The translations under genes and the position numbers were made by a program. DNA of 64,000 nt from Acidimicrobiia bacterium (GTDB lineage: Bacteria; Actinomycetota; Acidimicrobiia; Spongiisociales; ZC4RG35). Below, in pieces: positions 25,920 to 44,734 of this stretch. Below the pieces are notes generated by a model that worked only from the letters and a program-made list of their open reading frames with translations, did no database searches and was not told the origin of the DNA. Location of the stretch: NCBI GenBank assembly GCA_028285585.1, contig JANQOU010000006.1:186001-250000 (forward strand), given 5' to 3'. Numbering within the stretch: the stretch's first letter is position 1; each line of letters begins with the position of its first letter.

Positions 25920-26681
25920 GTGCAAGATCCTCCCTCTCAGCCCGTCGACGAGCGACGTCCTACGTGGACGATTGGTGACTTCGCCCTGATCTGGCTCGGC
26001 GGCCTGATCGGCACGGCGACGTTCGTTGCTCTTGCAACCTCACTCGACAACGAAGACTGGCTCGTGGTCTTCGGGCTCGCCGGCCAGTACGTGGGCAACC
26101 TCCTTATGCTCTGGCTTGTCTGGAGCCGAAAGCAGCGGCCGGGTCTCGGATTCCAGGTCGAGCCCAGAGATGCGGCGTACGTCGGTCTCGGTCTTCTCCT
26201 CCAGCTGGTGCTGGCACTCCTGCTCCTCCCCCTCGCAGAGCTTCTCTTCCCGGACGGGCGGCCACCTCAGGAAATCGCCGAGGCGATCGCCGACGCGGCA
26301 GGTTCCGGCTCATTGAAAGTGTCGCTGGTCCTGACAGCAGTGGTGCTGGCACCAGTCACAGAGGAAATCCTCTTCCGGGGTGTGCTGCTCAAAGCACTGC
26401 GCAAGCACAGCGACCGGTTCGTGATCGTGGTCACCGCGACCGTGTTCGCGTTGATCCACATCCTCGGGCTCAACTTCGAGCGAATCTGGGCATCGGCAGC
26501 ACTCGTGCTTCCCCCCCTCTTCGTCCTCGGTCTCCTGCTGGCCTGGATCACGTTGAGAACAGGCCGGCTCGGGCCCGCCATCTTCCTCCACTCGGGCTGG
26601 AACCTCCTGGCAGCCCTCGTCCTCCTCATCCCCGCCGACCTCCTCGAAGAAGTCAACTCCGCTACCGCGAACCTCAGGTAA
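25920..26681 (+). CDS. CPBP (CAAX-type) intramembrane metalloprotease
   Basis: A membrane protein of 253 residues with about seven hydrophobic segments. The Abi/CPBP signature is complete: EEILFRGVLL (glutamate pair and arginine), FALIHI (histidine), and HSGWN near the C-terminus. Bacterial members have been tied to bacteriocin immunity or protein sorting; the role here is unknown. GTG start at 25920. The N-terminal 20 residues are polar and proline-rich. The gene stops within the left arm of the inverted repeat at 26670. Confidence 0.9.
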   Translation: MQDPPSQPVDERRPTWTIGDFALIWLGGLIGTATFVALATSLDNEDWLVVFGLAGQYVGNLLMLWLVWSRKQRPGLGFQVEPRDAAYVGLGLLLQLVLALLLLPLAELLFPDGRPPQEIAEAIADAAGSGSLKVSLVLTAVVLAPVTEEILFRGVLLKALRKHSDRFVIVVTATVFALIHILGLNFERIWASAALVLPPLFVLGLLLAWITLRTGRLGPAIFLHSGWNLLAALVLLIPADLLEEVNSATANLR

Positions 26682-26833
26682 TGCCTGATGAAATCAGGTT
26701 GGAGTTTCTGGCAGAAACTCCAATGCCCTTTCAGGGCACCGGCCCAAATGCGGGCGCTATGGCCTCAGCTTCGACACACCACTACGCAACTCGAGGCTAT
26801 AGAGCCCAGATACGGGCGTTATTACCTGAGGTT
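26670..26833. repeat. 164-bp module bounded by 13-bp inverted repeats, with three abutting hairpins
   Basis: The arms AACCTCAGGTAAT (26670-26682) and ATTACCTGAGGTT (26821-26833) are exact inverted copies; the left arm includes the stop codon of the CPBP gene. Inside are three perfect hairpins placed end to end, each with a 3-nt loop: 26684-26698 (6-bp stem), 26699-26723 (11-bp stem) and 26724-26738 (6-bp stem). GCCC-N6-GGGC stems follow at 26742-26755 and near 26803-26816. It lies between convergent genes, so bidirectional termination is one reading; a REP- or MITE-like element is another. Confidence 0.7.
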
Positions 26834-26847
26834 GCCGGGTGGGGGGG

Positions 26848-27822
26848 TTAGGTGAGGCCGGTGGCGGAGCGGACGTCGGCCATGGTGTCGTCGGCCATGG
26901 ACCGGGCGCGCTCGGCGCTCGACGACATCACACCGGCCACTTCTTCGTCCGACATGCCGAGATAGGCCTCCCTGATCGGGCCCACGCCATCTGCGACCGC
27001 TTCGGCCACGGCAACCTTGAAGGTCCCGTAGCCGGCCGTCTCGTACTCGGCTGCGAGGTCGGCGATGGGGCGCCCGGTGAAGTACGAGAAGATCTCGAGC
27101 AGGTTGGAGATGCCCGGCTGACCTTCCCAGTCGTAGGCCACGACCGACCCGGTGTCGGTGACAGCCGACTTGATCTTCTTCACGATCTGATCGGTGGTGT
27201 CGATGAGGTCGATTCGCGACTTGGGCGCGTCGGTCTTCGACATCTTGGACGTGGGATCGGTGAGGGACATGACACGAGCCCCGATCTCCGGGGTGATTCT
27301 CTCCGGGATCGGGAACACCTCGCCGAACCTGTGGTTGAAGCGCTCGGCGAGATCCCGGGTCAGCTCGAGATGCTGCGCCTGATCGTCGCCAACCGGGACC
27401 GCATGCACCTTGTGGATCAGGATGTCCGCGGCTTGCAGCACCGGGTAGGAAAGCAACCCCAAGTTTTGGCCCGACTTGTCAGACTTCTCCTTGAACTGGG
27501 TCATGCGCTCCAAATGGCCCAAACCCGCAAGTGTGGAGAGGATCCACGACAGCTCTGCGTGATGGTGAACGGCCGACTGGTAGTAGAGCAACGACCGCCC
27601 CGGGTCGACGCCCACGGCAAGGATCATCTTGGCCAGGTTGTGACGAGCCTCGACGAACTGGGCGGGCTCGTTTGGGACGGTCATCGCGTGAAGGTCGACG
27701 ACGCAGTAGATCGAGAAGTACTCGTCCTGCATCGAGACCCAGTTGGAGAAGGCACCGATCAAGTTCCCCAGGTGGGGCTCGCCGGTGGGCTGCATGCCCG
27801 AGAACACTCGTTTGTTGGTCAT
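26848..27822 (-). CDS. trpS: Tryptophanyl-tRNA synthetase
   Basis: A class I aminoacyl-tRNA synthetase of 324 residues charging tRNA-Trp. The HIGH-type motif appears as PTGEPHLGNLIGA at about residues 11-23 and the KMSKS-type loop as SKMSKTDAPKS near residue 195. ATG at 27822 follows GAGAGGGACGAG and matches the family start; TTG at 27840 only adds six residues. Single gene, convergent with the CPBP protease gene. Confidence 0.97.
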   Translation of the reverse strand: MTNKRVFSGMQPTGEPHLGNLIGAFSNWVSMQDEYFSIYCVVDLHAMTVPNEPAQFVEARHNLAKMILAVGVDPGRSLLYYQSAVHHHAELSWILSTLAGLGHLERMTQFKEKSDKSGQNLGLLSYPVLQAADILIHKVHAVPVGDDQAQHLELTRDLAERFNHRFGEVFPIPERITPEIGARVMSLTDPTSKMSKTDAPKSRIDLIDTTDQIVKKIKSAVTDTGSVVAYDWEGQPGISNLLEIFSYFTGRPIADLAAEYETAGYGTFKVAVAEAVADGVGPIREAYLGMSDEEVAGVMSSSAERARSMADDTMADVRSATGLT

Positions 27823-43471: not shown

Positions 43472-44548
43472 ATGGCAAAAACGCCCTCCTATGACGGCTC
43501 CGGCCTGGTCAACCTGGTGGCCGAAATCGAGCGACTCCTCACAGGCAATGCGCCGTCCCCAGGGCTCGGCGAGGGCATGTCGGTCCCACCCGCCGAGACT
43601 TATGTCCTCGTGCTCTTCGATGGGCTGGGAATGGCACAACTGGAGCATCCATCGGCTGCTTCATTCGCCGCCGCCGCCGTAGGGTCACTCGATGCGCCCT
43701 TTCCGACCACGACGAGTGTGTCGCTGGCGACGGTGGCCACCGGGCTGGCGCCAGCCGGGCACGGTCAGGTCGCCCACCTGAGCTGGATGCCGGACCTGAG
43801 CGAGGTCGTCAACACTCTGAAGTGGGTCGACTTGAGCGGGGCGCCGGTGACCTACGACTATCCGGCGTTGATGCCGAACCCCAATCTTTGGGAGCGGCTG
43901 AGGCACGCAGGCATCGAGCCGATCACGGTCCAGCCCGGCGACTTCTCCGGGTCACCGCTGTCGCGGGCTCTCTATCGCGGCGCCCGGTTCGAGCCCGCCT
44001 GGGATGTCGACGACTTGATTCAGGCCACGGCTCAGCTGGCCGGAGTGCCGGGCAGGATGATCTTCACCTACGTCCCCCATGTCGACTTCGCCGGCCACGT
44101 CTTCGGCCTCGGGTCAGAAGAGTTCACCGATGCCATGCGGGTGGCTGTCTCTGTTTGGGAAGGCATCGCAGCCGCGCTGCCACCAGGCGTGGCCTTGCTG
44201 GGCACGGCGGATCACGGTCTTGCCGAGTTCCCGGAAGAGAAGAAGGTGCTGATCCGCGACCCGCGCTTCGACTCCCTCCGCTTCGCCGGCGACACCCGGG
44301 GAGTCCAGTTGTGGGGCGACGCGGAGCTGATGGACGAGCTGGCCGAGCTGGCGGGTGGCCGGCTGGCCGACCCGTCGCTTCTGGTCGGCCCATCGCCGAC
44401 ACCAATCGCCCTCTCGCGGCTTGGCGAACAGGTGCTGCTCCCGCCGGACGACATCGCCGCGCTCCCCCCCGGATTCGACAAGCGCCTGCGTTGCTATCAC
44501 GGCGGCCTGTCGGAGGCCGAGGTCAAGATCCCCCTCCTGGTCGGCTGA
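43472..44548 (+). CDS. Alkaline phosphatase superfamily phosphodiesterase/nucleotide pyrophosphatase
   Basis: A protein of 358 residues without a signal peptide. Metal-site segments of the nucleotide pyrophosphatase/phosphodiesterase family are in order: LVLFDGLGM (Asp), PTTTSVSLATVATG (nucleophile Thr), PHVDFAGHVFG (Asp, His), TADHG (Asp, His) and CYHGGLS (His). It therefore probably hydrolyses a phosphodiester or phosphomonoester with two metal ions. The substrate is unknown. The ATG lies 82 nt from nuoA; TATACG ends 10 nt before it, so the leader would be very short. Confidence 0.88.
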   Translation: MAKTPSYDGSGLVNLVAEIERLLTGNAPSPGLGEGMSVPPAETYVLVLFDGLGMAQLEHPSAASFAAAAVGSLDAPFPTTTSVSLATVATGLAPAGHGQVAHLSWMPDLSEVVNTLKWVDLSGAPVTYDYPALMPNPNLWERLRHAGIEPITVQPGDFSGSPLSRALYRGARFEPAWDVDDLIQATAQLAGVPGRMIFTYVPHVDFAGHVFGLGSEEFTDAMRVAVSVWEGIAAALPPGVALLGTADHGLAEFPEEKKVLIRDPRFDSLRFAGDTRGVQLWGDAELMDELAELAGGRLADPSLLVGPSPTPIALSRLGEQVLLPPDDIAALPPGFDKRLRCYHGGLSEAEVKIPLLVG

Positions 44549-44557
44549 CCGGCCTCC

Positions 44558-44569
44558 TTGCTATAGCAA
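44558..44569. promoter_or_regulatory. Perfect 12-bp palindrome, copy 1
   Basis: TTGCTATAGCAA, set in the shared 14-mer CTTGCTATAGCAAC. It stands in the 186-nt region between the phosphodiesterase gene and the DtxR-family gene. An identical copy is 108 nt downstream. Candidate operator for the adjacent metal-dependent repressor (inference). An inverted repeat GTGTCG-N5-CGACAC follows at 44573-44589. Confidence 0.6.
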
Positions 44570-44665
44570 CCCGTGTCGGTCAGCGACACGCTGTGCACGG
44601 CAGAAGCGAGCAACGGCCGACAACAGCTAGTTGCGCGTGCACCGCGTGACGCATAGCGCGACCAC

Positions 44666-44677
44666 TTGCTATAGCAA
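44666..44677. promoter_or_regulatory. Perfect 12-bp palindrome, copy 2
   Basis: TTGCTATAGCAA again, 57 nt before the GTG of the DtxR-family gene, a usual distance for a site near the -35 region. TACGAT at 44722-44727 could be the -10 element; it would place the transcript start at or near the GTG, i.e. a leaderless message. Autoregulation of the repressor is the simplest reading. Confidence 0.6.
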
Positions 44678-44734
44678 CGATGCACGGTCAGTCCGCCGGC
44701 GACGGAGGCTCGACGAGCGGATACGATTGCGGTC

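Follow-up and report, generated by a model that had tools for sequence, protein, structure and literature searches.

MITEs are small non-coding sequences with terminal inverted repeats that are copied to new places in a genome, and the BOX elements of Streptococcus pneumoniae are modular repeats in which constant ends can enclose an optional internal module. High-G+C actinobacteria have terminators without a U-tract, in which convergent genes share a strong hairpin, rich in G+C, that closely follows the stop codon. Pairs of uptake sequences reportedly form terminators, and their consensus, or dialect, is said to shift between related genera. Uptake sequences are also mentioned in PMC2267715. 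REP sequences and BIMEs, according to an excerpt of PMC3733652, are short imperfect intergenic palindromes that often occur as inverted dimers with spacers and sometimes form one large stem-loop, and the same excerpt describes many lineage-specific REP families tagged by GTAG/CGTC.

The element described here lies in a window of 64 kb (G000:C4:186001-250000, where G000 is the 2.59-Mb draft genome of the organism itself). It resembles REP/BIME sequences because it is also a short intergenic palindromic repeat arranged as an inverted dimer with a spacer, with 46-bp units and 21 two-ended elements. Unlike them, it has no GTAG/CGTC end tag, its units ending in AACC..GGTT with S-S/C-rich flanks; it occupies about 40 places, whereas REP sequences number in the hundreds; and it has C-tract/G-tract arms and is in close contact with stop codons. 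As in MITEs, it is small and non-coding, has terminal inverted repeats and is present in multiple copies. It is also modular as BOX elements are, with constant ends and an optional module, but its sequence is unrelated and its module consists of three perfect hairpins. Like uptake sequences it is found genome-wide as inverted pairs at gene ends with a consensus that changes between genera, but it is longer and has far fewer copies. It differs from the terminators without a U-tract in that its hairpin is a repeated and copied sequence family. No description of this element was found in the literature searched.

The element between the CPBP gene and trpS

The 13-bp exact inverted repeat reported in the earlier note, AACCTCAGGTAAT at 26670-26682 and ATTACCTGAGGTT at 26821-26833, was confirmed and spans 164 bp including its arms. 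It grows outward into an 18-bp repeat that is 89% complementary. Since conservation among copies includes the arms that flank the inverted repeat, the real element spans about 26656-26847 and is wider than had been noted. The three perfect hairpins with 3-nt loops that had been described as lying end to end are also there, at 26684-26698 (6 bp), 26699-26723 (11 bp), and 26724-26738 (6 bp). The parts of the window copy and its neighbors are as follows.

25920-26681, plus strand: CPBP (Rce1-like) protease gene, its final codons and stop coming from the element
26656-26669, plus strand: left outer arm, in which the conserved A-CCCCCC-WACCGSS sequence is degenerate (flank base counts at 62 element ends)
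26670-26682, plus strand: left terminal repeat AACCTCAGGTAAT, containing the TAA of the CPBP gene (26679-26681)
26684-26738, plus strand: optional module of three contiguous hairpins (nine copies; compensatory changes in eight aligned copies)
26739-26771, plus strand: remainder of the left unit U1, which is split by the module (aligned with a 30-nt direct repeat and with module-free units)
26772-26787, plus strand: 16-bp spacer separating units U1 and U2
26788-26833, minus strand: right unit U2, 46 bp, dyad-symmetric, inverted relative to U1 and ending in the right terminal repeat at 26821-26833 (pattern match with 0 mismatches, C4:212788-212833)
26834-26847, minus strand: right outer arm, which contains a G7 tract and immediately adjoins the trpS stop codon
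26848-27840, minus strand: trpS (tryptophanyl-tRNA synthetase), the convergent neighbor

When the window was scanned for adjacent hairpins with 3-nt loops and stems of at least 6 bp, the stretch 26684-26738 was the sole array found, and none was found in 10 windows simulated with a first-order Markov model. The RNA fold of a 174-nt stretch has an energy of -87.5 kcal/mol as against -53.05 (sd 3.9) for shuffled sequences (z -8.8), and the opposite strand, folded with DNA parameters, is also far below its shuffles (z -7.6). The TAA at 26679-26681 is the stop codon of the ORF at 25920-26681, whose product is a CPBP/Rce1-like protein (PF02517). Of the sequence features of an intrinsic terminator, the G+C-rich stem-loop soon after the stop codon is present and the run of T after the stem is absent; a search of 26400-27100 for terminators with a U-tract gave 0 terminator-like sites. 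Elsewhere in the window, a direct repeat beginning CTTGCTATAGCAA is found at 44557-44583 and 44665-44691, 108 bp apart and just 3' of the stop of a predicted ORF that ends at 44548.

Copies in the genome and anatomy of the element

A 186-bp query gave 122 matching pieces in G000, and the 13-mer with at most one mismatch was found 65 times (35 + 30) at about 40 places, while the reversed control gave 0. Thus, the sequence has the further genome copies that the earlier note had suspected and is not a single copy lacking structural conservation. There are 21 complete elements with both ends within 250 bp; 17 of these are 99-121 bp long, 10 of them exactly 108 bp, and the other four, which bear the module, are 163-164 bp long. 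The basic element consists of two inverted 46-bp dyad-symmetric units, a short variable spacer between them, and C-tract/G-tract arms. The unit reads AAC-NN-SAGG-NN-AT, 5 nt, CC-NN-AT-NN-GG, 5 nt, AT-NN-CCTS-NN-GTT, and this pattern matches 52 places in G000 and 0 in the control. An alignment of 51 units shows short blocks with little or no variation, separated by doublets that differ from unit to unit. The terminal repeats are flanked on the outside by a conserved 14-nt arm, A-CCCCCC-WACCGSS, and beyond -14 the conservation is lost (62 element ends). Since only one of the 61 predicted gene ends in the window, that of trpS, is directly followed by a C-tract, the C-tract is part of the element.

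Contigs C13 and C14 (L071:1-120 and L072:1-100) start with a reduced version of the element, which consists of a C-tract followed by ATCTTGCAACCTCAGGTAATGCCTGAGGTTGCAAGAT and a G-tract, and it seems that the assembly breaks at element hairpins there. The spread of copies is uneven, with 11 of the 14 places on C4 at 390-660 kb and the places on C1 at 208-385 kb, a pattern noted post hoc.

At three places (L063, L064, and L065) single genes lie between two half elements in arrangements of about 0.8, 1.1, and 1.3 kb. One gene codes for what reads as a small secreted protein, one is AbiEi_4/DUF559, and the third has no family assignment. These genes, read as a test for a parent transposon, look ordinary, AbiEi_4/DUF559 being an example. 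In G011, too, two of the three are seen as two units around a gene, and the enclosed genes therefore look like ordinary genes that happen to be between two units. A cargo transposon at these places thus looks unlikely. A tie between DUF559 nucleases and the element was rejected because G000 has three such genes, of which a single one, at C13:162264, is enclosed by known units, and G013 also has three, yet the unit profile matched nothing in that genome.

Stop codons and gene ends

Genes were called from ORFs with a heuristic based on GC by codon position and not from annotation. At the 62 element ends, ORFs that read inward tend to stop in one of three registers, namely, immediately ahead of the C-tract, at TAACCGCG (-8), or at the TAA within the terminal repeat (+9). 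This TAA is the stop codon of six genes that show clear coding bias and end in NLR* (L001, L004, L005, L012, L014, and L040); nine ends have such a frame and L003, L023, and L037 were excluded for weak coding bias. A gene 3' end is 30 nt or less away from 15 of the 21 complete elements in G000 and from 33 of 48 units in relatives, the latter read from 33 stretches together with search loci chosen among the matches listed. Of the 63 element sites that could be classified, 33 are convergent junctions, compared with 20 of the 84 remaining junctions in these stretches (Fisher p 0.0005, pooled). Some copies adjoin tRNA genes and one is close to tmRNA. The element at L003 lies between divergent genes and does not fit a pure gene-end role.

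The trpS-CPBP junction in relatives

A search for trpS matched 39 of 41 genomes, and its locus was read in 29 relatives. Of these, 24 have a CPBP homologue convergent with trpS, the two stop codons being -7 to 61 bp apart in 13 of the 24, 78-523 bp apart in six, and more than 1.2 kb apart in four; in L146 the distance, judged by eye and outside the count of 13, is about 7 bp. No element was seen at this junction in the downstream stretches of the relatives (up to about 260 bases). Thus, comparison of the same site shows that the convergent pair is kept and that the junction is without the element. In G012 there is an unrelated self-complementary stretch of 56 bp, a hairpin, between the stops of CPBP and trpS. 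The CPBP proteins of relatives end, for example, in ELLESLS* or ELLQLPT*. The window protein continues further, as far as DLLEEVNSATANLR, and its tail ATANLR is encoded by element sequence. Because the junction is empty and the CPBP tails are shorter in relatives, the element is an addition in the lineage of G000 that supplies the CPBP stop codon. The suggestion that it had landed at the end of this gene and provided its stop is therefore supported by the genome copies, by the empty site, and by the element-encoded tail. Since the gene pair is found in several relatives with hardly a base separating the stops and with no hairpin, a terminator at this junction is not essential.

Distribution, dialects, and shared places

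Matches to the 186-bp query were found in 3 of 41 genomes, and those to the unit sequence profile in 9 of 34 genomes from the family. With pairing added, the unit profile matched at least 11 of 138 genomes from the order, of which 9 belong to the family of G000; in this last search at most 45 candidates were scored per genome and the counts are lower bounds, per strand. A scan of genome contigs, in which near records may be omitted, gave one match, the Acidimicrobiia MAG contig JANQRA010000019.1, whose match equals that of G012:C23. The unit consensus is AACCTCAGGTAATA.. in G000 and G012, AACCTGAGGTWGTT.. in G024/G048, where units are near-perfect or perfect palindromes, AACCTCAGGTTGTACGG.. 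in G011/G047, and AACCTCCGGTAGTTAGG.. in G001. Thus, the dialects differ between genomes but the layout of the unit is conserved. Some units of G024, G048, and G001 are perfect palindromes with paired changes between copies.

Judged by flanking proteins, five places in G000 coincide with unit-bearing places in G011 or G047 (L012, L019, L046/L006, L008, and L020/L059), L004 coincides with a place in G001, and L018/L054 with one in G012. One unit-bearing junction is common to G012, G011, G024, and G047. This sharing of places across genera may alternatively reflect recurrent insertion at the same tight junctions.

The three-hairpin module and the constraint on pairing

The module is present in nine copies (L001-L006 and L008-L010), always directly after AACCTCAGGTAAT. 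Thus, the three hairpins described in the earlier note are real in the window copy but are an optional module and not the core of the element. In the module stems 97.3% of cells are paired and 6 pairs are changed on both sides, and 0 of 500 shuffles reach either value; the alignment used (A2) holds 8 of the 9 copies, L010 with its four hairpins being left out and L006 being shifted by one base. Since most of the compensatory changes lie in one copy, L009, they amount to few events.

One reading of these changes is that the module or the whole element is a structured non-coding RNA, either processed from CPBP or trpS mRNA or independently made. The stable multibranched fold and the paired changes in the stems would agree with this. 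We consider it very improbable because Rfam gave no match at gathering scores in the window, its chance-level matches (E up to 5) lying only outside the element, because no promoter-like site was found, and because the many copies are at unrelated gene ends. Moreover, the paired changes come mostly from the divergent L009, and templated correction of quasi-palindromes could also yield them.

The units behave differently from the module stems. Within G000 their pairing is 85.0% compared to 85.3% in shuffles, and no covariation is seen between variable mirror positions. For units taken from four sister genomes the covariation score was reached by 18 of 500 shuffles and across genera by 0 of 500, kinship remaining in the control in both cases; these alignments (A3 and A4) are made of orthologous places of sister genomes and their rows are not independent. 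From these alignments the symmetry appears to be kept over longer time, and within G000 the invariant blocks look more like the contacts of a DNA-binding protein. For this reason another explanation keeps weight, namely, that a dimeric or tetrameric protein which marks or insulates gene ends uses the 46-bp unit as its double-stranded site for binding or recombination. The hairpins would then be a by-product of dyad symmetry and the dialect of each lineage would follow its protein. This would account for the invariant short blocks at mirror positions with variable doublets between them, for the lack of covariation in G000, for the fixed unit length, and for lineage dialects with a conserved layout at places common to several genera. 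We nevertheless regard it as rather unlikely since no binding protein was found, the module and the outer arms favor strong base pairing, and perfect palindromes with paired changes are seen in some units of the three genomes named above.

Outside any unit, adjacent pairs of perfect 3-nt-loop hairpins similar to hairpins 1 and 2 of the module are found in G012, G024, G103, and G104, the last two being genomes of another family, and at L020 in G000. This hairpin-pair repeat has stems of 9-11 bp and 6-7 bp and 3-nt loops, is sometimes in tandem, and shows many paired differences between genomes. Its loci are L267, L270, and L273 (G012), L266 (G024), L265 and L271 (G103), L268 (G104), and L020:2456-2493 (G000). 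These pairs are apparently a second and wider repeat type that is independent of the 46-bp unit. Since similar pairs are found outside units, we infer that the module may be this second repeat type, which entered the element once and was then amplified with it.

Copying of the element

At L016 on C4 and L022 on C8, which are unrelated places, 149 bp are shared with 3 mismatches (98%), including 27 and 23 bp beyond the terminal repeats. Such a match, flank included, would hardly be expected unless the element had been copied together with some of its flank, and copying within the genome is well supported. No target duplication was found, flank matches being no longer than in shuffled pairs. A Y1/RAYT transposase (PF01797) was found in 0 of 16 family genomes including that of the element's host, with positive search controls and with the proviso that drafts may miss genes; this absence speaks against a RAYT-driven REP and sets the element apart from REP sequences. 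No plasmid or phage source matched and the module pattern was not found in the viral contigs searched. No parent element was found among the Y1 family and the three gene-enclosing half-element pairs. Of the earlier description as REP/MITE-like, the repetition and the insertion stand, while the classical marks, that is, the GTAG/CGTC tag, RAYT, target duplication, and a parent, were not found; the lack of target duplication separates the element from MITEs, as the lack of a parent would.

These results could also mean that the element is a purely parasitic repeat without function that survives only where it is harmless, between gene ends. Its lineage-specific insertion, the copied pair L016/L022, the degraded and half copies, and the patchy distribution are all compatible with such a parasite, and this is an explanation of some, but clearly less than even, likelihood. 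Its weaknesses are that some places are common to several genera, that invariant blocks are kept amid strong variation, and that the module stems show paired changes.

Conclusions

We propose that the element is a non-autonomous REP/MITE-like extragenic palindrome that is copied in the genome, persists at stop codons, and is most likely a two-way gene-end hairpin, and we hold this to be probable. Copies would propagate within the genome and persist beside stop codons, chiefly where two genes converge and the terminal repeat itself can provide the stop codon. Hairpins in both RNAs would end or protect the transcripts, acting either as a terminator without a U-tract or as a 3'-end stabilizer, and the module, as an optional insert, would give the CPBP transcript three further stem-loops, all strong. 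A more far-reaching idea, which we put forward as speculative and rather doubtful, is that this uncultured clade of Acidimicrobiia has a 46-bp dyad-symmetric gene-end sign, written in lineage dialects at the same junctions across genera and read by a protein (or copied by an enzyme), that ends or insulates convergent transcription, spreads, and provides stop codons.

The best-studied extragenic palindromes have a tyrosine transposase and an end tag. For this element neither was found, and it abuts stop codons and combines a consensus that varies between genera with a constant layout. The element is a repeat that writes the last residues of several unrelated proteins. If confirmed, it would offer a natural setting in which to ask if short palindromic repeats are parasites or serve as gene-end devices, since junctions that are empty, that hold an unrelated hairpin, or that hold one unit or two units can be compared.
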